Part shown: positions 26,660 to 42,844 of the stretch, one piece after another
Layout of the letters: every line of letters begins with the position of its first letter
How positions within the stretch are numbered: the stretch's first letter is position 1
Position numbers and translations under genes: made by a program
From: Paeniglutamicibacter psychrophenolicus
GTDB taxonomy: Bacteria > Actinomycetota > Actinomycetes > Actinomycetales > Micrococcaceae
DNA: 64,000 bases
Assembly: GCF_017876575.1 (NCBI RefSeq)
Contig: NZ_JAGIOE010000001.1
Coordinates: 806,001-870,000, forward strand
Direction: 5' to 3'
The notes under the pieces: generated by a model
What the model saw: only the letters and a program-made list of their open reading frames with translations
Databases searched by the model: none
What the model was told of the DNA's origin: nothing

Positions 26660-27091
26660 ATGAGTGAAAACAACGCCGTGGCCAGCACCGGGCCCATCGA
26701 CATGGAATTGCAGTTGCGCTGGTCCGACGAGGACGCGCTGGGGCACGTGAACAACGCCCGCGTGGTCACGCTGATGGAGGAGGCGCGGATCCGCTGGACC
26801 CAGCCGCGCAGCAAATCCGGACGCTTCCCGCACGGGACCGTGGTCGCCTCGCTGAAGCTGGACTACCTGCGTCCGCTGTACTACCAACCGACCATGGTGA
26901 TCCAGCTGTCGGTGGTGCGCATCGGCACCAAGTCCTTCTCGCTGCGCCACGTGGGGATCCAGGACGGGTTCCCGGTCTTCGACGGCGTCTCGGTGATGGT
27001 GCCGCTGGCCGAGGACAAGACCTCGAGCCGGGCGATCAACGACCTGGAGCGTGCCTGGCTTGAAAGCGCGTTCGTCGCAGCCGACGCCTGA
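26660..27091 (+). CDS. Acyl-CoA thioesterase (4HBT hotdog fold)
   Basis: A 143-residue single hotdog-fold thioesterase that should hydrolyse acyl-CoA thioesters. LRWSDEDALGHVNNARVVTLMEEARIRW is the family core; the Asp of WSDEDALGHVNN matches the catalytic Asp of 4-hydroxybenzoyl-CoA-type enzymes. LDYLRPLYYQPTMVIQLSVVRIGTKSFSLRH follows as the long beta strands. ATG 26660 is preceded by TGCAAT ending 7 nt upstream and lacks a ribosome binding site. Confidence 0.87.
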   Translation: MSENNAVASTGPIDMELQLRWSDEDALGHVNNARVVTLMEEARIRWTQPRSKSGRFPHGTVVASLKLDYLRPLYYQPTMVIQLSVVRIGTKSFSLRHVGIQDGFPVFDGVSVMVPLAEDKTSSRAINDLERAWLESAFVAADA

Positions 27092-27397
27092 GCCTGCCAT
27101 GCACCTGTCCGCTGGTGCCCAATAGTTGGAACCCTTTGCAGCAAACGGGACTGCGTGTCTCGTCAACGGGGCTTTGCGCGGTGATAGCTTCTTGCCGGAT
27201 GACGCCGGTTTGAGCCGTGGTAGCTTGTTTTTGGGTTGCCCCGGGAGCAAACCCCAAGCCAGGTAGGCATCGCCGGAATTCGTGGTCGCGCTTGCCCGGT
27301 ACGTTCCGCGACGGGGAGGCTCGCCACCAGGCCAAGCACACATCCGTTTGGAAACAGCGCCACCGGATCACCATCCGGCAGACGAGAGGCAAATCGA
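27092..27397. other. Gene-free stretch upstream of the epoxide hydrolase
   Basis: 306 bp without a frame I can support. It presumably holds the epoxide hydrolase promoter; neither a clear -35/-10 pair nor a convincing palindrome was found. Confidence 0.4.
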
Positions 27398-28558
27398 GTG
27401 TCGACAGTTCCGCATGAAGTCAGTTTTGACGCCGAGTCAGTGAAACAACTCAAGTCCCGCATTGCCATGACCAGATGGCCACGGCAGTTCGGGGTCGGCG
27501 ATTGGGACTTTGGAGTCGACAATGGGTATCTGCGCGGCCTGGTCGGTTACTGGCGCGACGGCTTTGACTTCGAGGCCGCAGCACAACGGATCAATTCGAT
27601 TCCGAACTACCTGACCGTCATTGACGGGTTGCCCATCCACCACTTGCACTCCCGGTCGGCCGAAGGCGACGCGACACCGATTTTGCTCCTGCACGGTTGG
27701 CCCGGCTCGATCGTTGAATTTCTCGAGGTCATCCCGAAGCTATCGGAACCCCGCGAGGCCGGCAAGGAATCCTTCCATGTCGTGGCCCCCTCGCTGCAGG
27801 GATTCGGCGGTTCCCCCGGGATCGACGAACCCGGGATGTCGCCCATCCGCATTGCGCACCGCATTGCCTCGTTGATGGAGGAACTGGGCTACGAGCGGTT
27901 CATCGTGCATGGAGGAGACTGGGGAACCCTTGTCGCCACCCACATCGCGTCCCTCTACCCGGAGCGGGTCCTGGGTTTGCACGTGACGTTGACCCATCCC
28001 ATTCCGCCAGCCGATGTGCCCGATCCGATGGCGTTGGTACGGGAGCACGAGCTGAAATGGCTGGAAGAGAACGAATTCAATGCCATCGACGGCCGGGGTT
28101 ACTTCGAAATACAAAAAACCCGCCCGGAGACCTTGGGATTTGCGCTCACCGACTCCCCGGTGGGGTGGTGCGCCTGGGTCTTGGACAAGTTCCACCAGTG
28201 GACCGACTGCGAACGAGACGGGACCAAGGACATCCGCAACGCGGTGAGCTGGGACCTGTTCCTGACGAACCTGTCCTTGTACTGGTTCACGGACACCATC
28301 TCGTCCGCCATGCATTTTTACCGGGAACAGTACCTGGCGCTGAGATCGGGCCAGGGAACCGCCGGGAAAGTCATGGTCCCGACCGGTGCTGGAATATTTC
28401 CCCAGGAAATCCTCAAGTCACCCAAGGCCTGGATGGAGCGGCGATTCCCGTTGGTGCATTGGACGGAGCATCCGGCGGGAGGCCACTTCGGGGCCATGGA
28501 GCAACCAGGGTTTTTCGCCGATGACCTCCGGGAGTTCGCCCGCAAAATCGGAGGCTAG
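27398..28558 (+). CDS. Epoxide hydrolase (alpha/beta fold, EHN domain)
   Basis: A 386-residue epoxide hydrolase of the microsomal/JHEH type. The N-terminal EHN domain (MTRWPRQF, WDFGVDNGYLRGLVGYWRDGFDF) covers the active-site tunnel; LLLHGWPGS is the oxyanion HGWP motif, HGGDWG carries the nucleophilic Asp, and HPAGGHFGAMEQP the catalytic His. These enzymes open epoxides to diols. GTG 27398 has AGAGG about 9 nt upstream; the frame continues upstream to 27236 without family similarity. Confidence 0.9.
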   Translation: MSTVPHEVSFDAESVKQLKSRIAMTRWPRQFGVGDWDFGVDNGYLRGLVGYWRDGFDFEAAAQRINSIPNYLTVIDGLPIHHLHSRSAEGDATPILLLHGWPGSIVEFLEVIPKLSEPREAGKESFHVVAPSLQGFGGSPGIDEPGMSPIRIAHRIASLMEELGYERFIVHGGDWGTLVATHIASLYPERVLGLHVTLTHPIPPADVPDPMALVREHELKWLEENEFNAIDGRGYFEIQKTRPETLGFALTDSPVGWCAWVLDKFHQWTDCERDGTKDIRNAVSWDLFLTNLSLYWFTDTISSAMHFYREQYLALRSGQGTAGKVMVPTGAGIFPQEILKSPKAWMERRFPLVHWTEHPAGGHFGAMEQPGFFADDLREFARKIGG

Positions 28559-28617
28559 GGAGCGCCAACTCGACCCCCGGAATTCTTTCTTGCCGGACGA
28601 CACCTGGATTCAAGCGT

Positions 28618-28638
28618 GCGGCAAGCGTCGAGACGTCC
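28618..28638 (-). pseudogene. sulP remnant, part left of the transposon
   Basis: 21 bp identical to the STAS-domain part of the intact sulP gene at 41094-41114. Together with 32123-32178 it forms a 72-bp stretch, about 86% identical to 41094-41165, interrupted by the transposon. Read on the minus strand the joined remnant encodes [10 protein letters not shown] as its end. Confidence 0.85.
28634..28638. repeat. Target-site duplication, left copy
   Basis: CGTCC directly before the element's terminal TGTT; the same five bases follow its terminal AACA at 32123-32127. Confidence 0.9.
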
Positions 28639-28663
28639 TGTTGACCGCCGCGTTATTTGACGA
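28639..28663. repeat. Left terminal repeat of the transposon
   Basis: Starts TGTTGACCGCCGCG and includes ATTTGACGA; an internal related motif, TTTGGCGACGA, follows at about 28679-28690. Confidence 0.7.
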
Positions 28664-28704
28664 TGAAGCCGCCACGTGGTTTGGCGACGACCGGGGCAGG
28701 GAAA

Positions 28705-28733
28705 CGCCCCTCCGGGAAAATCCCGGAGGGGCG
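28705..28733 (-). terminator. Terminator at the end of the transposon operon
   Basis: A perfect 13-bp stem (28705-28717 with 28721-28733) with a 3-nt loop; on the minus strand it is followed by TTTCCC. It lies 47 nt beyond the AAA ATPase stop. Confidence 0.85.
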
Positions 28734-28779
28734 TCCATGGCCAACGCGGCGGCGTGGTCGTCAGCGGCGCCGGGTGCCG

Positions 28780-29595
28780 CTATTCGGTGAACTCGGTGAC
28801 CGCCGACTGCGCCGCGGACTGGTCCACGATCGCGCCCTGCATTGATCGGGTGGCCATGAGCGCGGCCAGGGCCAGGTTGTTCACGGTCCGCGGGTAGCCG
28901 CGGGAGGCCTGGTGGATGACCTTGATGGCGTCCTCGGAAAACAGCGGATCGGCCCGGCCGGCGAACCCCAGGTGCCCCTTGATGTAGTCGGCGGTGTCCT
29001 CCAAGGTCATCGGGCCGATGGTGTAGCGGGTCCCGATCCGCTGGTCCAGGGCCGAGAGCACCGCCATCTTCAGCTGCCGGCGCAGGGTCGGCTGGCCGAT
29101 CAACAGCAGCGCGAAATGCGACTCCGTATCCATGGAAACGTTCGAAAGCATCCTCAGCGCCTCGAGGTCCTCCACCGAAAGCAAATGGGCCTCGTCGATG
29201 ACGATGACCGGCAGCCGGGAACGCTCGTCCAGTTCCCCGGCCAGCAGGGACGCGGCCTGCGCTGCCAGTGCCCCGGAGAAGAACGAGGGCGTGGAGCCCA
29301 GGGCGGTGACGATCGCCGAGCGGATCCCGCGGATCCCGATGGTCGGGTCCGGGACATAGATGATTTGGTGGCGGGAGGGTTCGAGCTGGTCCAGGGCGGC
29401 GCGGGCCGCCACGGTCTTTCCGGCCCCGACCTCCCCGGCGATCACCCCCATGCGGCGGTGCTCGATGCACCAGCGGATCCGGGCGACCGCCTCGCGGTGC
29501 CCGGGATGCTGGGTCAGCGCGGCCGGCGGGATGGCACGGCCGAAGGGAAGCCGGGTGAACCCGAAATGCGTCTGCAGGGTGGAGATCGAACTCAT
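28780..29595 (-). CDS. AAA+ ATPase of the transposon (TniB/ExeA-like)
   Basis: A 271-residue AAA+ ATPase, the helper protein of the transposon. Walker A is GEVGAGKT at residues 54-61 and Walker B VIVIDEAH at 130-137; LQTHFGFTRLPFGR at the N-terminus is typical of ExeA/TniB-like transposition ATPases. By analogy with MuB/TnsC it should bind target DNA and stimulate the transposase. The start codon overlaps the transposase stop as ATGA, so the two are translated in a fixed ratio. Confidence 0.92.
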   Translation of the reverse strand: MSSISTLQTHFGFTRLPFGRAIPPAALTQHPGHREAVARIRWCIEHRRMGVIAGEVGAGKTVAARAALDQLEPSRHQIIYVPDPTIGIRGIRSAIVTALGSTPSFFSGALAAQAASLLAGELDERSRLPVIVIDEAHLLSVEDLEALRMLSNVSMDTESHFALLLIGQPTLRRQLKMAVLSALDQRIGTRYTIGPMTLEDTADYIKGHLGFAGRADPLFSEDAIKVIHQASRGYPRTVNNLALAALMATRSMQGAIVDQSAAQSAVTEFTE

Positions 29596-31169
29596 CGGAC
29601 GGCCCCGGCTTTCCGCTCGGTGTTCTGCTGGATGTCGGCGAAGCTGATCGGCGCGGCGGTGCGTGACTCGCGGTGCCGGGTCGCCACCAGATCCAGGTAG
29701 TTGATCCCGGTGCTGATGTTGGCCGCTGCGTCGTGGTCCCTCACCGCATTGGCGACCTTGGCGTGCACGTGCCGCCCGATCTTCAGGATTTTCGCCTGCC
29801 CGGCCGCGTGGCCGTGGTGGTTGTTCACCGCGACCTGCCCGTCCAGGTCGAAGGGGTCATAGACCAGTTCCACCCTGGTGCCGGCCAGCAGCGGATCGAC
29901 CTCGTAGGTGTTCGCGTGCAGGGACACGGTCCCGGTCTTGGTGACCGTGCGGACATCGGACCAGAGGAACGCCTCGCGGATCGCCTCCAGGGACTTGCGC
30001 ACCGGTTCCCGGTGCTCCCAGGCCGCCTCCCAGCGCGCCAGGGGTGTTTGCCCGGTGCTGGTGTGTTGCCGGTGGTGGTAGGCCATGTTCACCCACCCGG
30101 TGAACAAGGTGTTCAGCTCCTTCAGGGTGCTGATCTGGGAGCCAGCCTCCGGGTCGGTGCCCGGAAGCATCGGGGTGTCGGTGACCGTGATTTCCCCCAA
30201 AAACTGGCTGGTGACCGTCGAAAAGAAGCGTTCGATCTTGCCTCTTCCCTGGGGCCGGTAGGGGGCCGAATGCACGAGCCGGATCCCGAGCTTGGCGCAG
30301 GTCCGCGACAGGGACTTGTCAACCATGGCGGCCCCGTTGTCCAGGTATACGACCTCGGGGATGCCGTAGGTTTCGAAGGCCGGCCGCAGCACCGCGCCGA
30401 GCCTGATGGCGTCCTCGGCCCAGGCCCAGCGGGCGGCGGTGACCATGCTGGAATGGTCGTCAAGGAACGCGAAGAGGTAGGTTTTCCTGCCGTTGATTTT
30501 CGGCCCGTGCAGGGCATCGCCCACCCAGATCTCGTTCGGATGGTCGGCCTCGAAGCGGCCGGTGGCCACCGGCCGAACGCCGGTGGGAATGTTCCTGGAG
30601 CGGAAGTGGCGCAGCAGCGTGGTCTCCGAGGGCGCGGTGCCCATGGCCTCGGCGATGATCCTTTTGACCTGCGCCGCGGTCCGGTTCGGTTTCTCCCGCT
30701 TCAGGGATTCGGCCAGGGCCAGCACGGTGGAGTCGGTGTAGGGTGCGCTGGCGCGTTCGTCGGGTTTCAGCCCGTCGAAGCCGTGGTCCTGCCAGGCCTT
30801 GATCCAGCGGTCCAGGGTTTCGCGGGAGTAGCGGCGGGTGCCGCCGAACGGCCACGGGTGCTCGACCTCGGCCAGGGCGCGGACCAGGGGCCCGCGCTGC
30901 CGGGTCGTCAGGGAATGGTCGGCCGCGGCCCGGATCACCTGGTAGCGGAAGAGGGCGATCTTCTCGCGGTGTTCCTTGCGCATCAGCGGGGTCGTGGCCC
31001 GCGGGGCCGGATTCGGCGGCACCGGGGAAAGAAGGGACGCCGGCGCCGGTACGGCGTGGGGCGCCTCCTGTGGGAGGGCCGGGCCCTCCACGAACAGATG
31101 CGGAACAGGGCCCGGTGGCTGCGGGGCAGCACCAAGCTCAAGGGGTGGGTGGGCTGGAGCACTGGTCAT
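29592..31169 (-). CDS. DDE transposase of the transposon (Mu/TniA-like)
   Basis: A 525-residue transposase. A Pro-rich head of ~60 residues is followed by helix-turn-helix modules (RRYSRETLDRWIKAWQDHGFDGLKPDER) and an rve integrase core with Asp218 (VGDALHG), Asp277 (YLDNG) and Glu313 (KIERFF), a D-D-35-E triad. The C-terminal region with LHANTYEVDPLLAGTRVELVYDPFDL is the beta-barrel of Mu-type transposases. The ATG at 31167-31169 has AAGGA upstream. The paired ATPase gene is coupled downstream. Confidence 0.93.
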   Translation of the reverse strand: MTSAPAHPPLELGAAPQPPGPVPHLFVEGPALPQEAPHAVPAPASLLSPVPPNPAPRATTPLMRKEHREKIALFRYQVIRAAADHSLTTRQRGPLVRALAEVEHPWPFGGTRRYSRETLDRWIKAWQDHGFDGLKPDERASAPYTDSTVLALAESLKREKPNRTAAQVKRIIAEAMGTAPSETTLLRHFRSRNIPTGVRPVATGRFEADHPNEIWVGDALHGPKINGRKTYLFAFLDDHSSMVTAARWAWAEDAIRLGAVLRPAFETYGIPEVVYLDNGAAMVDKSLSRTCAKLGIRLVHSAPYRPQGRGKIERFFSTVTSQFLGEITVTDTPMLPGTDPEAGSQISTLKELNTLFTGWVNMAYHHRQHTSTGQTPLARWEAAWEHREPVRKSLEAIREAFLWSDVRTVTKTGTVSLHANTYEVDPLLAGTRVELVYDPFDLDGQVAVNNHHGHAAGQAKILKIGRHVHAKVANAVRDHDAAANISTGINYLDLVATRHRESRTAAPISFADIQQNTERKAGAVR

Positions 31170-31255
31170 CAAAAGATCCTTCCGGTGGGGTGAAGCACGG
31201 GTCCGCGCAGCCTCCGGGCATCCGGAAACGACACGTGAATCCCACCTTTGCCCAC

Positions 31256-31900
31256 TTACCGCTGTCGCGGCAGGGCGGGTACGTGTTGCACGCCTTCGGG
31301 CCACCCGGCCTCGCTGAAGAACCACGGACCATGCGCGAACAGGGCGGCGGAATGCCACGTCATGGTGACCACGGTGCCGGCGGCCGTGCCGTGCAGGCGG
31401 GCCAGGACCCGGGCGTGGGCCATCAGCATGCCCAACGCATGGGCCGCGGCGGTCTTTGCCGGTGCCGGCCAGAATTCCAGGGCCTCGGCGGTCGCCCGGT
31501 GCACCCGGGCGGTGAAGGCTTCGGTGATGGCCGGGGCGTTGGTCTTGAAGGTGCGCAGCCAGTCCCGCACCGTGGACTCGGGCCGCTCCAGGATCGCAGC
31601 GATCTTCCGGTACCCTAGTCCCTGGGCGGCGCCAAGTTCCACGGCCTGCCCGATCACCTCCGCGTGGTCGGCCCGGCGGCAGGCAAACTCGGCGGGCAAG
31701 AGGATGTGGGTGGCCCGGCAGCCGCGGCAGCGGGCCCGGCGAGGGGTGACCCAGCGGCTCCGGATCGGTGTTCCGCAGCGGATGACCCGTGCCGTCCCGA
31801 AGCCCCAGGGCCGCAGCCGGTCCTGGCAACGCGGGCAGGGAAGTTCGCGGCCCAGGAGCTGGGATTCGACAGCGGCGGGATCGTGGCTTACCGTAAGCAT
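31256..31900 (-). CDS. DUF6431-type zinc-ribbon/HTH protein of the transposon
   Basis: A 214-residue protein. The N-terminal half holds a zinc ribbon with CPRC and later CRGC pairs around RPWGFGTARVIRCG; the middle holds a helix-turn-helix, GLGYRKIAAILERPESTVRDWLRTFK. It resembles the transposon-linked proteins now called DUF6431, which accompany this transposase/ATPase pair in actinobacteria; the role is unknown, perhaps end recognition or regulation. The start is taken at ATG 31898-31900. The frame continues to a GTG at 31954, but that part overlaps a 13-bp hairpin (31925-31937 with 31951-31963) that may be a regulatory site. Confidence 0.75.
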   Translation of the reverse strand: MLTVSHDPAAVESQLLGRELPCPRCQDRLRPWGFGTARVIRCGTPIRSRWVTPRRARCRGCRATHILLPAEFACRRADHAEVIGQAVELGAAQGLGYRKIAAILERPESTVRDWLRTFKTNAPAITEAFTARVHRATAEALEFWPAPAKTAAAHALGMLMAHARVLARLHGTAAGTVVTMTWHSAALFAHGPWFFSEAGWPEGVQHVPALPRQR

Positions 31901-32100
31901 CAGCGCGACTCGATTTCGCGTCAGAACGACCTGGTGCGGCTTCGAAACTGGCACCGGGTCGTTCGTCTTTAAGTGCCCGGGCGGAATTCCGGGAACGGGG
32001 GTCTGTCGCCAGCCTGACGCCGCCGACGAGGAACGTCAAGGGGCGGGCCGGGAAACACGAAGGCAAATGCCTCGTCGTCAGGCAACGCGGCTACCCACGG

Positions 32101-32122
32101 TCATCAAATGCGACGCCTAACA
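32101..32122. repeat. Right terminal repeat of the transposon
   Basis: Read inward on the minus strand it starts TGTTAGGCGTCGCATTTGATGA, related to the left end. A further motif, CCTGACGACGAGG, lies about 30 bp inside the element. Confidence 0.7.
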
Positions 32123-32127
32123 CGTCC
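32123..32127. repeat. Target-site duplication, right copy
   Basis: CGTCC directly after the terminal AACA of the transposon, identical to 28634-28638. Confidence 0.9.
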
Positions 32128-32178
32128 CAGAGATGCGAAGCCTGCATGTCGATGACCACGTGTGCAGGGTCCAGCGCG
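32123..32178 (-). pseudogene. sulP remnant, part right of the transposon
   Basis: On the minus strand it encodes ALDPAHVVIDMQASHLWDV, continuing in the left part as STLAA. The intact SulP has [24 protein letters not shown], so 22 of 24 residues agree while about 10 of 72 bases differ, mostly silently. It is therefore a decayed relative of sulP, not a recent copy. The first five bases are the target duplication. Confidence 0.85.
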
Positions 32179-32293: not shown

Positions 32294-33736
32294 TTGGATT
32301 ACTACGCCATACAGGGGCTTCGGGAAAACCACCCGGGGTGGGCCTTGCTACGCGCCGACCATGCCCCGCTGCTGGTCGCCTTCTTCGTCGCGGCCTTCAT
32401 CGAGCCCAACCGCCGCAACATCCCGCGCCGCGAGCTGATCGACGCGCTCGAGGACGTGCTGTTCATGGTCCGCGACGAACAGGGTGATGCAGCGTTCCCG
32501 CGCAGCGCCGCGGAATACCTGGACAACTGGGCGGCGCCGGAGAAGGCCTGGCTGCGCAAGTTCTACATCGAGAACCAGGACGACCCGATCTTCGATCTGA
32601 CCCCCACCACCGAGGACGCGGTGCGCTGGGTGCAATCGTTGCAGGGGCGGGAGTTCGTGGCCACCCAGTCGCGGCTCACCGGCATCTTCGCACTGCTCAA
32701 GACCCTGGTGCAGGGCTCGGAAACCGATCCCGAAGTTCGCCTGGCGCAGCTGGAGGCCGAACGCGCGGCCATCGACGCGAAGATCGAGGCTGTCGCGGCC
32801 GGGGACATGCCGGTGATGACCGGCCCCGAGGCGCTTGACCACTACCAGCAGCTGCGCGCCCAGGCCCAGGACCTGCTCTCGGACTTCCGCGAGGTCGAGG
32901 CGAACTTCCGCGACCTGGACCGCAAGGTCCGCGAACGCATCGCCACCTGGGAGGGAAGCCAGGGAGAGCTGCTCGATGCGATCTTCACCAACCAGGAGGA
33001 CATCTCCGGGTCCTTGCAGGGACGCACCTTCCAGGGGTTCTGGGACTACCTGATGTCCCCGGCGCAGCGTGCCGAACTGTCCGACCTGCTGGAAAAGACC
33101 ACGCAGATCCCCACGCTGGCGACCGTTGACGGGGTGGGGGAGATCGTGAACCTGCAGCGCGACTGGCTGCCGGCGGTCGAGCAGACCCAGGGCACCGTGC
33201 GCCGCCTCTCCTCGCAGATGCGCAGGCTGCTCGATGACAAGGTGTTCCTGGAGAACAAGCGCATCATGCAGCTGATCCGCAGCATCGAATCCAACGCGCT
33301 GGCGCTGCGCAACGACCCGCCGTCCGGCACCGTCACCGAGATCGCGGCGCAGCAGGCGGAGATCACCCTTCCCTTCGAACGCCCCCTCTACAAGCCAGGA
33401 ACCCAGGTGGTCATCGACGATGCGGTGGAGCTCGCCGAGGACACCGAGGTCGATTCCAGCGCGCTCTTCGACCAGTTCTATGTGGACCGTGCCGAGCTGC
33501 AGGCGAACATCGACGAGGTCCTGGGCCAGCTGCCGCAGGCCAGCCTGGGACAGGTCCTGGAGCTGCACCCGCTGGCCAAGGGGCTGGCCGAGGTCGTCAC
33601 CTACTTCCAGATCGCCGCCGAATCCGGCTGGGCGGACATCGACGCCTCGCGCACCCAGACCCTTTCCTGGACCACCAGCACCGGGGCGCGGCGCGAAGCC
33701 ACGGTGGAACACGTTACCTTTGTGAGGCCCGAATGA
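32294..33736 (+). CDS. jetA: Wadjet system subunit JetA (DUF3375, kleisin-like)
   Basis: A 480-residue DUF3375 protein, the kleisin-like (MksF-related) part of the Wadjet SMC complex that recognises and helps cleave closed circular plasmid DNA. The N-terminus MDYYAIQGLRENHPGWALLRADHAPLL matches the usual family beginning, which favours TTG 32294; GAGGACAGG lies just upstream. Three ATG codons at 32240-32248 are in frame and would add up to 18 residues, but they overlap a -10-like TATGAT and have no ribosome binding site. A coiled-coil middle is followed by a helical C-terminal region. First of four overlapping genes, jetABCD. Confidence 0.9.
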   Translation: MDYYAIQGLRENHPGWALLRADHAPLLVAFFVAAFIEPNRRNIPRRELIDALEDVLFMVRDEQGDAAFPRSAAEYLDNWAAPEKAWLRKFYIENQDDPIFDLTPTTEDAVRWVQSLQGREFVATQSRLTGIFALLKTLVQGSETDPEVRLAQLEAERAAIDAKIEAVAAGDMPVMTGPEALDHYQQLRAQAQDLLSDFREVEANFRDLDRKVRERIATWEGSQGELLDAIFTNQEDISGSLQGRTFQGFWDYLMSPAQRAELSDLLEKTTQIPTLATVDGVGEIVNLQRDWLPAVEQTQGTVRRLSSQMRRLLDDKVFLENKRIMQLIRSIESNALALRNDPPSGTVTEIAAQQAEITLPFERPLYKPGTQVVIDDAVELAEDTEVDSSALFDQFYVDRAELQANIDEVLGQLPQASLGQVLELHPLAKGLAEVVTYFQIAAESGWADIDASRTQTLSWTTSTGARREATVEHVTFVRPE

Positions 33737-34380
33737 ACCTGGACGATGCATTGCCCTTCGAGATGGATGCCGATGCGGTTGCGGGCGCTGACCAGGGCGC
33801 GATCGCACCGACTGCGTCCGATGCCCTCTCCCTGGTGCTCACCCACCTGCTCAGGGGCGTGGTCTACCGCGAGGCCGATCCCAAGCTGTGGCAGGCGCTG
33901 GGGGAGAACATTGCCACGGCCCGGGACTATGTCGCGGTGCTCGGCCTGGAGCTCTTCCACGACGACATCGAGGGCTACGCGTTCCTGCGCTCGAACCAGG
34001 ACGAGGACTCCAAGCTGCCGAGGCTGGTCGCCCGCCGGCCGCTGACCTTCCACGTCTCGCTGCTGCTGGCGCTGCTGCGGGTGCGGCTGGCCGAGTTCGA
34101 CCAGCAGACCTCCGAGAGCCGGTTGGTGATGTCCCGCGAGCAGATCGCGGAGATGGTCTCGGTGTTCATGCCCGAAACCAGCAACGAGGTGCGCCTGTTC
34201 GACCAGCTGAACACGTCCATCAAAAAGGTCGCGGAGCTGGGCTTCCTGCGCAAGCTGCGCGGCACCGATGACCACTACGAGGTCCAACGGATCATCAAGG
34301 CGTTCGTGGATGCGCAGTGGCTGGGCGAGCTTGACGCGCGGTTGGCCGACTACCGCACGGCCCTGGAAGGAACGAAATGA
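33733..34380 (+). CDS. jetB: Wadjet system subunit JetB (DUF4194, KITE-like)
   Basis: A 215-residue DUF4194 protein related to MksE, a tandem winged-helix (KITE) subunit that bridges the kleisin JetA and the SMC protein JetC. Recognisable parts are LLRGVVYREADPKLWQAL, LELFHDDIEGYAFLRSNQDED and YEVQRIIKAFVDAQWL. The start overlaps the jetA stop as ATGA and its own stop overlaps jetC the same way, so the subunits are translationally coupled. Confidence 0.92.
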   Translation: MNLDDALPFEMDADAVAGADQGAIAPTASDALSLVLTHLLRGVVYREADPKLWQALGENIATARDYVAVLGLELFHDDIEGYAFLRSNQDEDSKLPRLVARRPLTFHVSLLLALLRVRLAEFDQQTSESRLVMSREQIAEMVSVFMPETSNEVRLFDQLNTSIKKVAELGFLRKLRGTDDHYEVQRIIKAFVDAQWLGELDARLADYRTALEGTK

Positions 34381-37300
34381 ACCAGATGAACGCCTTCGGG
34401 GACCAGGACTCGCTGTTCGGGCAGGAGCAGGAGACGCTTTTTGCCGAAGCGCTGCAGCATCCCCATGGCCAGACGTCCCACGGCCAGGGGTTGGATGCGG
34501 TGGCCAGCAAGGAAACACCCGAGGTCACCAGGGCGTCGGTGCCGCAGGCCGAGGCCTTCGAGTTCGAGGGCCTGGAACCCGGATTCCGCCTGCGCCGGCT
34601 CGAGATCCTGAACTGGGGCACCTTCGACGAGGAGGTTCGCCGCTTCATCCTGGACGGGAAGAACTCGCTGCTGACCGGGGACATCGGCTCGGGCAAGTCG
34701 ACGGTGGTCGATGCGATCACCACGCTGCTGCTGCCGGCGCACCGGATCGAGTTCAACAAGGCCGCGGGCGCGCAGAAGAAGGAACGCAGCCTCATGTCCT
34801 ACGTGCGGGGCTTCCACAAGTCCGAGCGCGGGGGCGGCGAATCCTCCAAGCCGGTCGCGCTGCGCAAGCCCGGCTCCTACACCGTGGTGCTGGGCGTGTT
34901 CGGCAACGCGGAAATGGACAAGGCCGTCACCCTCGCGCTGACGTTGTGGGCCACCCAGGAGGCGGGCCAGCCCAACCGCTTCTACTCGCTGGCCGAAGGC
35001 GAACAGTCAATCACAGGGGACTTTGCGAACTTCGGAGGGGAACCCCGGAAGCTCAAGAGCCGGTTGAAAACCGATGGGGTCAAGACCTTTGATGCTTTTG
35101 AGCAGTATGAATCGGAGTTCAAGCGCCAGTTCGGGATCACCGGGTCCCAGGCCATGGACCTGTTCCACCGCACGGTGTCGATGAAACAGGTGGAGAACAT
35201 CACCAGCTTCGTGCGCACCAACATGCTCGACGACGATGACGTGGCGGAGCGGCTCAAGAACCTGATCCTGCACTTCGACGATTTGAAGAAGGCGCACGAC
35301 GCGGTGCGCCGGGCCAGGGACCAGATCGAGATGCTCGTCCCGGTCCGCGAGCACTCGGCCCGGCACCGCGAACTGGATTCGCAGGAGAAAACCAGCCGCG
35401 CGCTGCGCGACGAGCTGACCCCGTGGTTCATGTCCAGGCAGCTGGAATTGAGCCTGGAACACCAGGCGGAGCTTGGGCGCACCGCACAGCGGCTTCACCG
35501 CGAGTCGGAGGCCAAGAAGGCGCAGGCGGCCACGGCCCAGGAGCAGTTGGCCGTGATCCGCGATGACATCCGCACGCAGGGCGGCGGGAGGCTTGCCGCC
35601 ATCGATTCGGAGATCCATGCGGCGCGCGCCGCACGGGAACGACAGAAAACCAAGGCCGCAAGCTACGGCGCTTCGGCCGCGTTGCTTGAGCTGGCCGAGG
35701 TGCGCGACCAGGTCGATTTCGACGCGAACGTCGCCGCGCTGCCGGAAACCACCAAGCGGCTGGCTGACGAAACGGCGGCACTGAACCAGGACCACGGCGA
35801 GCTGCTGGGCCAGGTTCGCGAGGCCGCCGCGGAGGAAGCCTCGCTCAAGGAAGAACACGCGTCCTTGCAGGCGCGAGCCAACCTGCTGCCGCGCGAGCAG
35901 CTGGAAATCCGCCACCGGCTCTGTATGGCGACCGGCATCGACGAGGCGGTGCTCCCGTACATCGGCGAGCTGCTGCGCGTGCGCCCGGGCGAGCAATTGT
36001 GGGAGAGCGCCGCGGAGCTGACGCTGCGCGGATTCGCCCTGTCGCTGCTGGTGCCCCAGGAGCACTATGCCGCGGTGTCCAGCTGGGTGGATGCGAACAA
36101 CCTGCGCGGGCGGCTGGTCTACCGGAAGGTCGACGCGGAACCCGTGCGCGCCGTGGAGCAGCGGCCCGGGACGCTGGCGTCGAAGGTGGAGATCAAGGCC
36201 GGCACGCACTTCCGCGCCTACCTGGCCGCGGAGCTGAACAAGCGCTTCGACCACCAATGCTGCGAATCCCTGGAGGATTTCCGCCGCCACCCGCGGGCGG
36301 TGACGCCCAACGGGCAGCTCAAGACCGGCGGCGGGCGCCACGAGAAGGACGACAGGCCCGCGAGCCGGGACCGCCGGAACTTCGTGCTTGGCTGGGACAA
36401 CCACGAGAAGATGGCGATGGTCCGCCGGCTCATGGAGGAGAGCGCGGCCAGGCGCCTGGGATTCGAGCGGCGCGTCGCTGCGCTGCTGCAGAAGCTTGGC
36501 GACCTGGGGTTGGCCCAGCGCGCGGTGGGCACCGTGCAGGGCGTGGAGTCTTTCGCGGAGATCAGCTGGCAGCTCACCGCACGAACGATCGACGGGCTCG
36601 AAGCCGAGCACCGGGAACTGTCCGGTGCCAATGACCAGCTGTCGCTGCTGGCCACCAAGGAAGCCGAGCTGGTGCTGGGCCTGAAGAAGCTGCAGGACCA
36701 GTCGGAGGTGCTGCTCGACCGAGGTGGACGGAACAAGCAAGCCCTCGAGGACATCGAAGCGGCGATTGCCGGATGCCGCGAGTCCCTGGCCGAAACCCCG
36801 GCCAGCAGCGACAGCGGGGTCCTGGTCCAGCTGGCGCGATTGACCACCGAAGCGCTGGGCGATGCCGAGCTGAGCTACCGCAACACCACGACCACCGAGC
36901 GAACGGTGCGCGAGCAGCTGACCACCCGCATCGACGGCTTGAACCGGCAGGTGATCAGGGCCGGGGAAAACACGCTGAACAGGATGTCGGAGTTCAGGGC
37001 CAAGTATCCCGAGGAATGCACGGACATCGACAATTCGCTGCAGGCCGCCGGGGAATTCACCGCACTGCTCGAGAAGCTCCAGAAGGACGACCTGCCGCGC
37101 TTCGCCACCCGCTTCAAGGAGGCGCTGAACCAGAACACCATCAACGAGATCGTTGCGTTCAACGCCTTCCTCGATGCACGCAAGACCGACATCACCGGAC
37201 GCATCGGGCAGATCAACGCTTCCCTCGCGCAGATCGACTACAACGCCGGCCGGCACATCCAGCTGGAGCACGACCAGTCCACCGATCCGGAAATCAGGGA

Positions 37301-37901
37301 GTTCATCGTGGATTTGCGCTCCTGTTCCGAAGGGACGCTGGGGGAGTCCGAGCAGTATTCGGAGCTGAAGTTCGCGCAGGTCTCCAAGCTGGTGGAGCGC
37401 TTCCGCGGCCGCGACGGGCTGAGTAGCCTGGACCAACGGTGGACGGCGAAGGTCACCGACGTGCGCAACTGGTTCACCTTCAGCGCCTCCGAACGTTGGA
37501 GCGAGACGGGCGAGGAATTCGAGCATTTCACCGATTCGGGCGGCAAATCCGGCGGGCAGAAGGAGAAGCTTGCCTACACGATCCTCGCCGCGGCGCTGGC
37601 CTTCCAGTTCGGGCTCGGCGGACGCAAGTCCGGCAAGACCGAGGCCAAGCGGAACTTCAGGTTCGTGGTGATCGACGAGGCCTTCGGCCGGGGCTCGGAC
37701 GAGTCGGCCCGCTACGGGTTGGAGCTGTTCCGGCAAATGAAACTGCAGTTGCTGATCGTCACCCCGCTGCAGAAGATCCACGTGATCGAGCCGTTCGTGG
37801 CGCACGTGGGGTTCGTCGACAACCCCTCCGGACAGGCATCGCACCTGCGGAACATGAGCATCGAGGAATACCGGGCCCAGAAGGAACTCCGTGGCAAATA
37901 G
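34377..37901 (+). CDS. jetC: Wadjet system subunit JetC (SMC-like ATPase)
   Basis: A 1,174-residue SMC/MksB-like ATPase, the DNA-loop-extruding motor of Wadjet. An acidic, Gln-rich head of ~65 residues precedes the ATPase half FRLRRLEILNWGTF with Walker A GDIGSGKST at residues 101-109. Long coiled coils fill the centre with a hinge-like part near residues 520-680. The C-terminal half holds the ABC-like signature GKSGGQKEK near residue 1060 and Walker B RFVVIDEAF near 1100. It overlaps jetB by 4 nt (ATGA) and jetD by 11 nt. Confidence 0.94.
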   Translation: MNQMNAFGDQDSLFGQEQETLFAEALQHPHGQTSHGQGLDAVASKETPEVTRASVPQAEAFEFEGLEPGFRLRRLEILNWGTFDEEVRRFILDGKNSLLTGDIGSGKSTVVDAITTLLLPAHRIEFNKAAGAQKKERSLMSYVRGFHKSERGGGESSKPVALRKPGSYTVVLGVFGNAEMDKAVTLALTLWATQEAGQPNRFYSLAEGEQSITGDFANFGGEPRKLKSRLKTDGVKTFDAFEQYESEFKRQFGITGSQAMDLFHRTVSMKQVENITSFVRTNMLDDDDVAERLKNLILHFDDLKKAHDAVRRARDQIEMLVPVREHSARHRELDSQEKTSRALRDELTPWFMSRQLELSLEHQAELGRTAQRLHRESEAKKAQAATAQEQLAVIRDDIRTQGGGRLAAIDSEIHAARAARERQKTKAASYGASAALLELAEVRDQVDFDANVAALPETTKRLADETAALNQDHGELLGQVREAAAEEASLKEEHASLQARANLLPREQLEIRHRLCMATGIDEAVLPYIGELLRVRPGEQLWESAAELTLRGFALSLLVPQEHYAAVSSWVDANNLRGRLVYRKVDAEPVRAVEQRPGTLASKVEIKAGTHFRAYLAAELNKRFDHQCCESLEDFRRHPRAVTPNGQLKTGGGRHEKDDRPASRDRRNFVLGWDNHEKMAMVRRLMEESAARRLGFERRVAALLQKLGDLGLAQRAVGTVQGVESFAEISWQLTARTIDGLEAEHRELSGANDQLSLLATKEAELVLGLKKLQDQSEVLLDRGGRNKQALEDIEAAIAGCRESLAETPASSDSGVLVQLARLTTEALGDAELSYRNTTTTERTVREQLTTRIDGLNRQVIRAGENTLNRMSEFRAKYPEECTDIDNSLQAAGEFTALLEKLQKDDLPRFATRFKEALNQNTINEIVAFNAFLDARKTDITGRIGQINASLAQIDYNAGRHIQLEHDQSTDPEIREFIVDLRSCSEGTLGESEQYSELKFAQVSKLVERFRGRDGLSSLDQRWTAKVTDVRNWFTFSASERWSETGEEFEHFTDSGGKSGGQKEKLAYTILAAALAFQFGLGGRKSGKTEAKRNFRFVVIDEAFGRGSDESARYGLELFRQMKLQLLIVTPLQKIHVIEPFVAHVGFVDNPSGQASHLRNMSIEEYRAQKELRGK

Positions 37902-39090
37902 GGTTGCGCCATGGACTGGCGTGGCAGGGCTGCGGGACGTGTGCCTGAAGTCATGGGACCGCGGGGATATGCTGCGCGAATTGCTGGAGCCATCGGATGC
38001 TTATCCGCGCCGCCGCGCCTTGAAGGCGCCGACTGCCGGCGAACTGCGCCAGCGCTTTGCCGAGGTGAAGGACTGGGCCCGGGAGCTGCATGCCGGGGCC
38101 GGGCACTACCGCCTGGAAACCCGGAGCATCGGGCACCAGAGCGTCGGGGCGAACGATGTCCCGCAGGCGGCACGTTTTGATTCCGTCGCCGACGAGATCG
38201 CCTTCGCGGGCAAGGGCAGGGATGCGGCGGCGTTCCTGAAATTTGCCGCCGCGCTCGAAGCGGCGGAACCCGGCCTCCGCCCGTGGGTGCTGGCCAAGCC
38301 GTTCCAGCTTCTGGAGCTGGGCCCAGAGACCCTGGTGGTCGCACGGGTCGCCCGATGGCTGGTGGAGAACCCGGAACCGGGCATCTACGTGCGCCAGCTG
38401 GCCCTTGCCGGTGTGCACACCAAGTTCGTGGAAAAGCACATGCGGTCCATCGACGAGATGGTCGCGGTCCTCACCGGCGCTGCGGCCCCGCGCAGCTCCT
38501 CGATGAAGTCCTTCAGGGCACGTCACGGCTTTACGACCGAGCCCGACACCGTGCGCATGCGCGCGCTGCCCGGGATCCTGAACGCGCCGGGCGGGGCCGA
38601 GGACGTGGAAATCGCCGCCGAGGCCTTCGAAAACCTGGCGCTGCCGGTGCAGCGGGTGATAGTCACCGAGAACAAGACGAACTTCCTGGCGCTGCCGTTG
38701 ATGCCCGGCACGCTCATCGTTTTCGGTGGCGGTTACGGGTTCAGCGGGCTGGGCGCCGCCGGGTGGGTTGGCGGCTGCGACGTCGTTTATTGGGGAGATT
38801 TGGACACGCACGGCTTTGCCATCCTGAACCAGCTGCGTTCGCACCACCCGCATGTGCGCAGCGTCTTGATGGACCAGGAAACGCTGATGGACCACCGCGG
38901 ATTCTGGGGCGTCGAGATGAGCCCGTCGAAGGGGATTCCCGCCCACCTGGATGCGGCCGAGGCCCGGCTCTTCGGCGAACTGGCCTCGGGCGTCCACGGG
39001 GAGCGGATCCGGTTGGAACAGGAACAGGTCAACTGGGACTATGCGCTGGCGCGCATCGGGGATGCCTGCGGGTGGGACGTCGCGGAATGA
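37891..39090 (+). CDS. jetD: Wadjet system subunit JetD (DUF3322/DUF2220, Toprim-like nuclease)
   Basis: A 399-residue protein with an N-terminal DUF3322 arm (residues ~1-190) and a C-terminal DUF2220 Toprim-like domain, the nuclease that cuts plasmids once JetABC has reeled them in. The catalytic Glu lies in VTENKTNFLALP (near residue 260) and the Asp pair in YWGDLDTHGF (near residues 303-305), so the active site looks intact. GTG 37891, inside the end of jetC, has AAGGAA upstream. Last gene of the system; the convergent hipA follows after 7 nt. Confidence 0.93.
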   Translation: MANRVAPWTGVAGLRDVCLKSWDRGDMLRELLEPSDAYPRRRALKAPTAGELRQRFAEVKDWARELHAGAGHYRLETRSIGHQSVGANDVPQAARFDSVADEIAFAGKGRDAAAFLKFAAALEAAEPGLRPWVLAKPFQLLELGPETLVVARVARWLVENPEPGIYVRQLALAGVHTKFVEKHMRSIDEMVAVLTGAAAPRSSSMKSFRARHGFTTEPDTVRMRALPGILNAPGGAEDVEIAAEAFENLALPVQRVIVTENKTNFLALPLMPGTLIVFGGGYGFSGLGAAGWVGGCDVVYWGDLDTHGFAILNQLRSHHPHVRSVLMDQETLMDHRGFWGVEMSPSKGIPAHLDAAEARLFGELASGVHGERIRLEQEQVNWDYALARIGDACGWDVAE

Positions 39091-39097
39091 CGGCAGG

Positions 39098-40312
39098 TCA
39101 GTTGGCCCGCGATGCCTTCTCGACATTGCGGCCGACGACCGCGCCGAGCAGCTTGGCCTGGTGTGGTGGGAGCGTCGACCATGCTTCGTCAAGGTTTTCC
39201 CCAACCGATAAGGCGATTTCCAGGACCCGGGCACCCAGCTCGTCCTGGTCGAATCCAATTCGCTTGGCAAGCTTGCGCCAGTGGGAGAGGCTGACCGCCT
39301 GGGATTGCCGGGCGCCGGCAATCCGCATGGCAAGGTCCTGGTCGTATTGCGGATAGAGCGCCACGGGTACCGCGTCGTACAGGGGCGCCAGGGAGATGCG
39401 GCCCGGACTAAGGAGCACCGAGTAGTTCTTCGCGTGTGCGTCTGCATTTCCTATCAGGGTATTGAAAACAACCTGATCGAGGAACGTGCGGCGCATGCTC
39501 CCCTCGCGGTCCACGTCGGAAAGTTTCCGAAAAGCTTGCTCCACGGTGATGTTGTACTTGTCCGCCGGCCCGATTCCCAGGGCTTGGGCGAGATCCTCGG
39601 TGTGCAGGCGCCGAGAGAAAACCGAGTTGTCCTGCCGGGCCCTGTCGAAACGCCTGACGATAAATGCTTGGTGGTCCTCAACATGAAGAACCTGGGCCGA
39701 GGCGGCTTCAATGCCGATCGTGCGGGCCAACTCGAGCGCCGCGACCTCTGCGTGCTCGATGCCCTCAAGCCGTGGTGCCCCCGGCTTGACGATGTGTGTC
39801 GAGGGGACGCTTTCGTTGGACCAGTACCAGTCGCCGTCGATGTCGGCCAGCGCGAATTTACCTTGGGTTCCCGCCAGGGAAAAGCGCGCGGGAGCATCCA
39901 GCGGGATCCACGCATCTGCATCGAGCTTGATGCTATTGATCCGGTCGGCAAGATCCCGGTCCAGAATTGGGTTCAGCAATGGCTCATGGTTCGACAGGCT
40001 GGTTCCTTCGGGCAAGAGCACAAGTTCGCCGGCCAGGTCCCCGCCGGCCTTGGCCAACAAGCCATAGGCCGATGTGTCTACGGCTTCGTAGGCCAGGGCC
40101 ATGCGGGTCCGCGTATGTTCAGCGTCAGGCAGCAGATTATCCAAGAAACGCTGGGCTGCAAGCCTGGATCCGCTGCCGCCGCGGGGGAGCGATAGTGAGA
40201 TGGGGGTGGCCGTTGCATCCTCGTCGTAGAGGAATCGCACCGGTTGATTCGGGCCAAAGATGAACTGGCCAACGTGGTGGTCTTCGAGCCAGGCCTCGAG
40301 TACCCGGGTCAT
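39098..40312 (-). CDS. hipA: HipA-family kinase toxin
   Basis: A 404-residue Ser/Thr kinase toxin; HipA of E. coli phosphorylates glutamyl-tRNA synthetase and causes persistence. The activation loop and ATP-loop SLAGTQGKFAL is at residues 145-155 (Ser145 is the likely autophosphorylation site), the catalytic IGNADAHAKNYS at 287-298 with Asp291, and the metal-binding Asp313 in APLYDAV. All residues needed for activity appear present. It overlaps the antitoxin stop as ATGA, the antitoxin-first order of hipBA. Convergent with jetD. Confidence 0.93.
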   Translation of the reverse strand: MTRVLEAWLEDHHVGQFIFGPNQPVRFLYDEDATATPISLSLPRGGSGSRLAAQRFLDNLLPDAEHTRTRMALAYEAVDTSAYGLLAKAGGDLAGELVLLPEGTSLSNHEPLLNPILDRDLADRINSIKLDADAWIPLDAPARFSLAGTQGKFALADIDGDWYWSNESVPSTHIVKPGAPRLEGIEHAEVAALELARTIGIEAASAQVLHVEDHQAFIVRRFDRARQDNSVFSRRLHTEDLAQALGIGPADKYNITVEQAFRKLSDVDREGSMRRTFLDQVVFNTLIGNADAHAKNYSVLLSPGRISLAPLYDAVPVALYPQYDQDLAMRIAGARQSQAVSLSHWRKLAKRIGFDQDELGARVLEIALSVGENLDEAWSTLPPHQAKLLGAVVGRNVEKASRAN

Positions 40313-40932
40313 GCTGCCGCCGGATTCGGGAGTGCAGTTGGCTGGATATTCAGCACGCGGAGAATTCTGCGGCTCGGCGAAGGCAAGGGCAAACGTATGG
40401 CGCGTTCGATCATCTTCAGATCCGCCAGGGATACTTGGGCCTTGTCCGCCAGTTCGGCCTGGGTGAATCCTTGGACAAGGCGTTCGGAGGAAACGATGTC
40501 AGCAAGGTCCTCGGGCTTGCGGAGGTACTCATGTCGCGTCCTGTGCAGGGACTCGAAGACGTAGGCAGAGTTTCCAGCGAGGGCGTGTTCAACCAAGTTG
40601 GTGCCGAAGTTCAATGGGCCGGAATGCTTGCCACCCCACCAATCGATGAGCAGCACCGCAGGGTTGTCGGACGCGCGCAGTTCGGCAATGCGCTTGGCCG
40701 TGCGTTTGCGGTCCTGGCCCGTCAAGCCGGTGAGGCTTCGGTTGTGCAGTGCCCGTGACAGGACCAGCCGCGAATGTTCGGATAGCGGCCGGCGCTCGGC
40801 CCGGCGGAGCTGAAGGTCATCGATCTGCCAGGCGCGCCCGACCTTCCGCGCCTTGAGTTTGCCTTGCTGGATCAGGGCTCGCACGCGTCGTTCGGTCACA
40901 CCGAGGGCCTTGCTTGCTTCGCCGACGTTCAT
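40309..40932 (-). CDS. hipB: HipB-like antitoxin with extra excisionase-type HTH domain
   Basis: A 207-residue antitoxin, more than twice the size of classical HipB. The N-terminus MNVGEASKALGVTERRVRALIQQGKLKARKVGRAWQID is a MerR/excisionase-like winged helix; the C-terminus (SERLVQGFTQAELADKAQVSLADLKMIERAIRLPLPSPSRRILRVLNI) is the Xre-type HipB domain. The middle ~90 residues (NPAVLLIDWWGGKHSGPLNFGTNLVEHALAGNSAYVFESLHRTRHEY) are of unknown fold. TATACT ends 6 nt before the ATG, so the mRNA is leaderless, and a 7-bp inverted repeat covers the -10. Confidence 0.87.
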   Translation of the reverse strand: MNVGEASKALGVTERRVRALIQQGKLKARKVGRAWQIDDLQLRRAERRPLSEHSRLVLSRALHNRSLTGLTGQDRKRTAKRIAELRASDNPAVLLIDWWGGKHSGPLNFGTNLVEHALAGNSAYVFESLHRTRHEYLRKPEDLADIVSSERLVQGFTQAELADKAQVSLADLKMIERAIRLPLPSPSRRILRVLNIQPTALPNPAAA

Positions 40933-40981: not shown

Positions 40982-42490
40982 TCAGCCCAGGTGACCAGCC
41001 ATCCGTTGGCGCATGGCCGCGCTGGCCTCGTTCAGCCCGGTGATCTCGGCCGATTTGCCGGAGGCAGCGTACTTGGCGGTGATGGACTCGAGCGCGGCAA
41101 GCGTCGAGACGTCCCAAAGGTGGGAGGCATGCATGTCGATGACAACGTGGCCCGGGTCCAGTGCGTACTCGAACTGCGTGTACAAGTCGTTGGACGAGGC
41201 AAAGAACAGCTCGCCGTTGACGGTGTAGGTGGCGGTGTCGCCCGTGGCATCCACGGTGCGGGTGACAGTGACGAAGTGCGCCACGCGACGGGCAAAGAGC
41301 ACCATCGCCGACAGCACCCCCGCGCCCACCCCGATGGCGAGGTTGTGGGAGAAGACCGTGGCCAGCACCGTGATGAGCATGACCGCGGTTTCGCTCTTGG
41401 GCATCCGGCGCAGCGTGGAGGGGCGGATGGAATGCCAGTCGAAGGTCGCCCACGAGACGAAGACCATCACAGCCACCAGCGCGACCATGGGGATCAGCGC
41501 GACCACGTCGCCGAAGGCCACCACCAGGACCAGCAGGAACACGCCGGCCAGGAACGTGGAGATCCGTGTGCGTGCGCCGGAGGCCTTCACGTTGATCATG
41601 GTCTGGCCGATCATCGCGCAGCCGCCCATGCCGCCGAAGAACCCGTTCACCAGGTTCGCCACGCCCTGGCCCCAGGCCTCGCGGGTCTTGTTGGAACGGG
41701 TGTCGGTCACGTCGTCGACCAGTTTGGCGGTCAGCAGGGATTCGAGCAGGCCCACGATGGCCACTGCCAGCGCATACGGAGCGATGATTTTGAAGGTCTC
41801 GAACGTCAAGGGGAGTTGCGGGAAGAACAATTCGGGCAGTGAGGAAGGCAGTTCGCCCTTGTCGCCCACGGTAGGCACCGTGAGGGAAGCGAAAACCGTG
41901 ATGAGCGTGAGCACCACGATCGCGACCAGCGGGGCCGGGACCCTGGTGGTGATCCGCGGCAGCCCGAAGATGATCAGCAACGCCAGGCCCAGCAGCGGGT
42001 AGACAAGCCACGGGACATTCATGAGCTCGGGCAACTGCGCCACGAACACCAGGATCGCCAGCGCGTTCACGAACCCGACCATGACCTGGCGGGGGATGAA
42101 GCGCATCAGCTTGGCCACGCCCAGCACCGCCAACAGCACCTGGAAAACACCCGCGAGCAGGATCGCGGCGACCAGGTAATTCACGCCGTGGCTTGCCACC
42201 AGCGGCGCAATCACCAGTGCCACGGCACCGGTTGCAGCCGAGATCATCGCAGGGCGTCCGCCGGCGAACGCGATGGTCACCGCCATGGTGAAGGCGGAGA
42301 ACAGGCCCACGCGAGGGTCGACCCCGGCAATGATGGAGAACGCGATCGCCTCGGGGATCAGCGCGAGCGCCACCACCAGCCCGCCGAGGATCTCGACACC
42401 CAGAAGCCTCGGGGAGCGCAGCGTGCGCAGCACCGACTGGCGTTCCAGGGGCGTCGGCGCAATGGCCGGGGTGGCGGGCAGGGAAGGCAT
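40982..42490 (-). CDS. SulP-family anion transporter
   Basis: A 502-residue SLC26/SulP carrier with about 11-14 membrane helices and a C-terminal STAS domain. [38 protein letters not shown] is the SulP signature, and [26 protein letters not shown] the conserved helix-8 region. The STAS part, [29 protein letters not shown], is the segment whose remnant lies at 28618-32178. Family members carry sulphate, bicarbonate or dicarboxylates; the short loops and NxGG-type motifs resemble bacterial bicarbonate-type SulP, unproven. The start is the ATG at 42488-42490. Confidence 0.92.
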
Positions 42491-42844
42491 GAAGGGATTC
42501 CGTTCAGAATGATTGCGGCCATGTGGCAGGGGATCGAGCCCAATTCTAGGGGAACGCGGGCGGGCAGGCCCGGCCATGCATCGGACAGGACAATGGCGAG
42601 CGCACGCGGGTTCATGCCTGGGTGCGCCGCGGAGGCGGGACGATGCAGCGGAATTCCGCGCTCGTTCAGGTCTGGAGAAGGCCTTGCAGCTGCTGTCCTA
42701 GAGGGTCAAATCGGCGAATCTTCGCTTAGGATGAGGTATCAAATTGCCCGTCGCCCTGTGGCGTGGGCGGCATGCTTGGAAGATCGAGTGCAGCTGCCGC
42801 GTGGGCGCACCAGGGAACATGGCGAGTGCAAGGGGGAAAGTGGC
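42491..42844. other. Gene-free stretch between sulP and the LuxR regulator
   Basis: 354 bp of promoter DNA for two divergent genes. TAGGAT at 42727-42732 is a possible -10 for the regulator. A long open frame crosses the stretch but has no ribosome binding site or family similarity. Confidence 0.4.

Follow-up and report, generated by a model that had tools for sequence, protein, structure and literature searches.

The 64,000-nucleotide stretch of the genome of the soil bacterium Paeniglutamicibacter psychrophenolicus (Micrococcaceae) analyzed here (the window; contig NZ_JAGIOE010000001.1, positions 806,001 to 870,000) contains four overlapping genes, jetA, jetB, jetC and jetD, which lie on one strand in this order and very probably form a complete type I Wadjet system (JetABCD, alias MksBEFG), which is accessory and occupies a variable site in the chromosome (Table 1). 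The operon had been proposed at 32294-39090 in an original prediction made from the nucleotide letters, and its coordinates and canonical order were confirmed, with overlaps of 4 bp (jetA/jetB), 4 bp (jetB/jetC) and 11 bp (jetC/jetD). The Pfam matches also agreed with the subunits named there: JetA matched DUF3375 (454 bits), JetB matched DUF4194 (152 bits) and the MksE model as well, JetC, the SMC-like ATPase, matched AAA_29 and SbcC_Walker_B, and JetD, the Toprim nuclease, matched DUF3322 (142 bits) and JetD_C (171 bits). The type I assignment was borne out by PADLOC, in which the top models were all of type I (JetA1, 641 bits; JetB1, 282 bits; JetC1, 1346 bits; JetD1, 422 bits) and type II/III matches were limited to JetC2 (22 bits) and JetD3 (18 bits). 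None of the four proteins matched an NCBIfam profile.

The motifs that the prediction had read by eye could all be located. JetC carries a Walker A motif (GDIGSGKST, from residue 101), a signature motif (SGGKSGGQKEK, from residue 1054) and a Walker B motif (FVVIDEAF, from residue 1096), and the acidic Toprim residues E260, D303 and D305 are present in JetD. Solved relatives of JetA, JetB, JetC (8dk2 and 8as8) and JetD/MksG were found by sequence. For JetD, the PDB matches were, in order, MksG 8b7f (E value 8e-27) and the JetD structures 7til and 8q72, with E260 aligned opposite the mutated alanine of the solved JetD(E248A) in chain 8q72_M. The window operon thus has the subunit set, the A-B-C-D order, the type I profiles and the ATPase and Toprim residues of a type I Wadjet.

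The solved type I Wadjets (8as8/8q72 and 8dk1-8dk3) consist of the same JetABCD set, match the window JetC with E values of 5e-51 to 5e-60 and align with the Toprim residues of its JetD, but they are only distant relatives of the window operon. We take E. coli GF4-3 and P. aeruginosa PA14 to be the sources of these structures, an assignment that fits PMC10586767. The MksBEFG system of C. glutamicum, also a type I Wadjet (PMC10123090), has the same four subunits, a DUF3322 plus DUF2220/JetD_C nuclease and an actinobacterial host; MksG 8b7f is the best PDB match of the window JetD. Wadjet has been reported in 42% of Actinobacteria and 7% of other bacteria (PMC10482375), and a complete copy here is therefore unsurprising. 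By homology with the systems described in PMC10586767 and PMC12647877, a JetABC motor dimer would load on DNA and extrude a loop by ATP hydrolysis, and a fully extruded circle would activate the dimeric JetD Toprim nuclease to linearize it. Smaller circular plasmids would in this way be destroyed and the chromosome spared, so that loop extrusion, cleavage and plasmid restriction are predicted activities of the operon in its host.

Table 1. Features of the window and the second jetABC operon of the same genome (window coordinates unless a contig or locus is given)
Feature	Position	Strand	Basis or remark
Thioesterase gene, one boundary of variable site	26660..27091	+	
Epoxide-hydrolase-like gene, neighbour	27236..28558	+	Pfam
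sulP relic, left piece	28605..28638	.	
Transposable element, 3,484 bp	28639..32122	-	5-bp target duplication CGTCC at 28634-28638 and 32123-32127
sulP relic, right piece	32122..32178	.	
jetA (DUF3375, kleisin-like)	32294..33736	+	TTG start; PADLOC, Pfam, PDB relatives
jetB (DUF4194, KITE-like)	33733..34380	+	PADLOC, Pfam, PDB relatives
jetC (MukB-like SMC ATPase)	34377..37901	+	PADLOC, Pfam, PDB relatives, motifs
Tandem QDSLF / QETLF motifs, JetC N-terminal tail	34404..34442	+	
jetD (DUF3322 + JetD_C Toprim nuclease)	37891..39090	+	PADLOC, Pfam, PDB relatives, residues
hipA, neighbour outside Wadjet	39098..40312	-	Convergent with jetD
hipB-like regulator (HTH_17 + HTH_3), neighbour	40309..40932	-	Pfam
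sulP, core gene, other boundary of variable site	40982..42577	-	
Second jetABC operon without jetD	L069:8922-14592 = G000:C1 about 4558922-4564592		DUF3375 gene C1:4559204-4560598

Orthologous Wadjets were found in Arthrobacter sp. AQ5-05, P. psychrophenolicus CC174 and Arthrobacter sp. MYb229, where JetC is 95%, 85% and 78% identical to that of the window in its best segment; identity is at most 62% in the remaining 33 of the 36 related loci. In each of them, as in the window, jetA has a thioesterase gene on its left, and the compared stretches of their jet genes are free of internal stops, jetB and jetC of MYb229 being compared only from the point where the match begins. Compared with AQ5-05, the ratios of nonsynonymous (dN) to synonymous (dS) substitution were 0.13 for jetA (0.013/0.101), 0.24 for jetB (0.024/0.100), 0.16 for jetC (0.024/0.148) and 0.20 for jetD (0.055/0.279). 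With dN far below dS, the jet genes are under purifying selection.

The distribution of the operon in the genus is that of an accessory element. Whereas all 15 genomes of the genus gave a match to DNA of the sulP region, a window-type Wadjet was found in three (the window genome, G050 and G111), each time between the thioesterase gene and sulP. The site was read in 13 of the other 14 genomes, with G200, which has no JetD_C, excluded and with G219 contributing a stretch that holds sulP only. In G141, G190 and G180 the thioesterase gene directly adjoins sulP, and the remaining genomes have other DNA or a different gene order there. G168 carries a Wadjet of another clade at a different location, its JetA being 27% identical to that of the window. 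These data indicate that the window Wadjet is an accessory operon at a variable site. Since the thioesterase gene immediately precedes jetA in MYb229, a long-standing presence with later losses is no less possible than a recent gain. The idea that the site is a hotspot of defense genes was not supported by nine proteins hand-picked from the other DNA at this site in four relatives (L090, L093, L095 and L097), which have metabolic, transport or regulatory domains (IclR, Fer2, MFS, aldehyde dehydrogenase, PLD-like and CAAX protease), many further open reading frames between the thioesterase gene and sulP lying outside this search.

One observation weighs against an active Wadjet in this strain, namely that a circular-looking replicon coexists with it in the same genome. 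The second contig (G000:C2; L154-L158) is 83,774 bp long, has a GC content of 60% compared to 66% in the window, and carries a CbiA/MinD/ParA-type gene, which we take, from recognition and not from a profile match, to encode a partition ATPase. A frame open off both contig ends continues across them as 698 amino acids, and the contig therefore reads as circular; the protein of this junction frame is presumably, again by recognition and not by a profile match, a biotin-carboxylase subunit. It could accordingly be asked whether an operon with intact-looking genes is nevertheless silent or only weakly active here, or whether it does no more than tune plasmid copy number and does not block uptake, the latter in line with the effect of C. 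glutamicum MksBEFG on plasmid copy number (PMC10123090). We consider this unlikely, although it deserves more weight than the other alternatives discussed below, because each of the four jet genes has a dN well below its dS, their residues are intact, and the resident replicon is close to the published size limit. Wadjet targets have been placed under 50-100 kb, with escape above about 100 kb (PMC10586767), which puts a replicon of 83,774 bp in a grey zone. In mobile-element records, a Wadjet-like JetC was matched in 18 of 72,556 plasmid records, and none of 50,697 phage records matched JetD.

In addition to the window operon, the genome encodes a second jetABC operon, in which a DUF3375 gene is followed by DUF4194 and SMC genes and the Walker A, signature and Walker B motifs are legible by eye and look intact. 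A JetD_C profile search of the whole genome gave a single match, in the window operon, and none at the second operon, which thus corresponds to MksBEF without the nuclease. Such a lineage had been named in the original prediction as what would contradict a Wadjet; it describes this second operon, at G000:C1:4559204, and not the window operon, which has jetD. The closest described counterpart of the second operon is the P. aeruginosa MksBEF, a condensin without MksG (PMC10586767), from which the window operon differs by its JetD. That the window operon is itself a chromosomal condensin of the MukBEF/MksBEF type, and not a defense system, is highly improbable. The match of JetB to MksE and the JetD-less relative in the same genome would fit a condensin, but the operon includes a jetD whose catalytic residues are in place, it occurs in only three of the 15 genomes of the genus, and a canonical ScpA is encoded elsewhere in the window genome.

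Both motors occur in one cell with a single JetD_C in the genome, which would also fit a JetD that serves the second JetABC in trans, the window operon arming both. This is very unlikely, however, given that 10 of the 15 genomes of the genus have the second type of DUF3375 and no JetD_C match, and that the two JetC proteins of the window genome share only about 25% identity. All 15 genomes have a DUF3375 match of the 316-329-bit type, and five have any JetD_C match, one of them partial. The genes flanking the second operon were concordant in the six loci examined, two of these genes being so in the locus from another genus. A gene with a nucleotidyltransferase domain downstream of the JetD-less operon (L069:14765-15382) was considered as a replacement effector and rejected, as it had no match in the loci of six relatives.

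The same two forms recur across the Micrococcaceae, where DUF3375 was found in 167 and JetD_C in 70 of the 295 genomes sampled. Among the 150 DUF3375 matches listed, which are those scoring at least 308 bits, JetD_C lay within 10 kb of 59 of the 61 with at least 400 bits and of none of the 89 below 400 bits. Of the two exceptions above 400 bits, one lies in G108, where JetD_C is matched on a different contig, and the other, in G218, is a second DUF3375 copy. Conversely, 17 of 76 JetD_C matches had no listed DUF3375 inside 10 kb, several of them being fragments. Below 308 bits, in 13 hand-picked genomes, two of 10 DUF3375 matches had JetD_C within 10 kb: a full-length match of 303.5 bits (G245:C5:127256-133984), with JetD_C on the same strand about 5 kb away and a second DUF3375 at a distance of 12.5 kb, and a truncated match of 290.7 bits in G244:C13 that reaches no further than position 257 of 474. 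The DUF3375 score therefore fails as a clean divider between operons with and without JetD.

In a JetC tree of 54 sequences, 25 of the 26 JetD-less ones formed one group free of JetD-bearing systems, and the window JetC grouped with the latter; the tree was built by a quick method, on 12 of the 36 named loci, and false joins are possible, with a long-branch warning for L110, L116, L138, L140 and L141. L130 was dropped (no JetC), and the JetD-bearing G245 operon was not included. The JetD-less operon placed among the JetD-bearing ones (L144; G218:C1:563000-571800) has its JetC matches in two pieces and may be a decaying Wadjet. No description of the family-wide pattern was found among the titles and abstract beginnings searched, the key papers lying outside that search. 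In Table 6 of PMC11719660, Paenarthrobacter lasiusi S21 is listed with a complete type I Wadjet and with another made up of just JetA, JetB and JetC, which receives no comment in the parts covered. The pairing of JetD-less and JetD-bearing forms is thus already partly in print (PMC11719660, PMC10586767).

The JetC of the window carries a tandem pentapeptide motif in its N-terminal tail. Upstream of the ATPase start and in the same open frame, [QE][DE]x[LIM]F was found in 35 of the 36 related loci (the exception is L028), and the stricter Q[DE]xLF occurred within the last 60 residues before NWGTF in 34 loci, compared to a mean of 0.07 after shuffling, these loci being kin and so not independent. 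Elsewhere in JetC, Q[DE]xLF occurred in none of the 36. Thirty further JetD-type loci yielded 13 that were readable, at least five of which repeat loci of the first set; 10 had the motif and the other three had QAGLF, QTSLF and QASLF. The motif was present in only one of 27 JetD-less loci (L116, with the similar EDTLF). It is not a general mark of JetD, since a second JetD-bearing clade lacked it in all eight readable loci of 17 tried. In solved type I Wadjets, an IFDR motif at the N-terminus of JetB contacts JetD, according to the review PMC10586767, whereas in the broader clade of the window the JetB N-terminus varies (14 loci) and a JetC tail motif is conserved. By analogy with the IFDR motif, we guess that Q[DE]xLF may dock a partner. 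Two-hybrid data from C. glutamicum, in which MksG connects via MksF (PMC7083940), weigh against such a dock on JetC.

These patterns raise the reading, in our view unlikely, that the Micrococcaceae have two versions of a condensin: an inherited, nuclease-free JetABC that would act on the chromosome, and an accessory JetABCD that would recruit its nuclease or another partner via the conserved Q[DE]xLF of a flexible JetC tail and not via the JetB tail.

The original prediction had placed the novelty of this copy in its setting, beside HipBA, next to a transposon and bracketed by sulP copies. That claim did not hold up: these elements are neighbours and not parts of the Wadjet, and the setting is mostly incidental. 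HipBA does adjoin the operon, with a HipA kinase that has its N-terminal subdomain (HipA_C, 164 bits; Couple_hipA, 51 bits) beside a HipB-type HTH gene, whose product carries an additional HTH_17 at its N-terminus and reaches 25 bits with TIGR03070, the cut-off being 71.65. The linkage, however, is not conserved. When the 36 related loci, with flanks of at most 10 kb and in some cases less, were searched by tblastn, none had a hipA and two had a hipB match; in the flanks of the MYb229 Wadjet, as far as covered, neither sulP nor hipB was matched. In AQ5-05, CC174 and MYb229, unlike in the window, hipA and the transposon are absent from the corresponding place. In CC174 (L004, hipB frame from 15395) hipB is kept, hipA is missing and the end diverges further, and in AQ5-05 (L003, hipB frame from 15363 downwards) hipB continues in frame straight into the final HipA residues, for which reason hipA looks to have been deleted in these two nearest relatives. 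In G022, too, a hipB homolog without hipA lies at the same place. A single functional island of Wadjet and HipBA, in which HipA would provide growth arrest as a back-up, is scarcely credible: only 8 bp separate the ends of hipA and jetD, and in three genomes the Wadjet is followed by a hipB-like gene, but hipA was found in none of the related loci, is convergent with jetD and has a lower third-position GC (0.74) than the jet genes (0.84-0.90).

The transposon next to the operon is real, but it is a later insertion at the Wadjet site. It begins with TGTT, ends with AACA and encodes an AAA ATPase, an rve/Mu_transpos_C transposase and an HTH protein whose DUF6431 match stays under the family cut-off; in AQ5-05, the nearest relative, the corresponding site is uninterrupted. 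One more near-full-length copy (79% identity) is present in the window genome and two (93% and 85%) in AQ5-05, and 8 of the 15 genomes of the genus had any match. As for the sulP bracket, one intact sulP exists, a core gene, and the supposed left copy is a short relic split in two by the transposon. The relic corresponds to the interior of sulP (about 41083-41165) and not to the gene end, and no integrase domain was found among the window proteins searched, which are not every open reading frame; an integrase-type island at the sulP 3' end was therefore rejected. Next to sulP, a 991-amino-acid open frame (42188-45163) has a C-terminal LuxR-type GerE DNA-binding domain as its sole Pfam match.

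The window operon itself is one more intact, ordinary type I Wadjet of a known system. Of greater value is that one family holds a JetD-bearing motor and a separate, better-conserved JetD-less lineage, often in one genome, which makes the Micrococcaceae suitable for testing whether the nuclease-free form organizes the chromosome. The JetC tail motif offers a concrete guess at partner docking in the accessory clade. If the two-version reading is true, comparing JetABC with JetABCD would be a natural way to see how a DNA-organizing motor turns into a plasmid killer.

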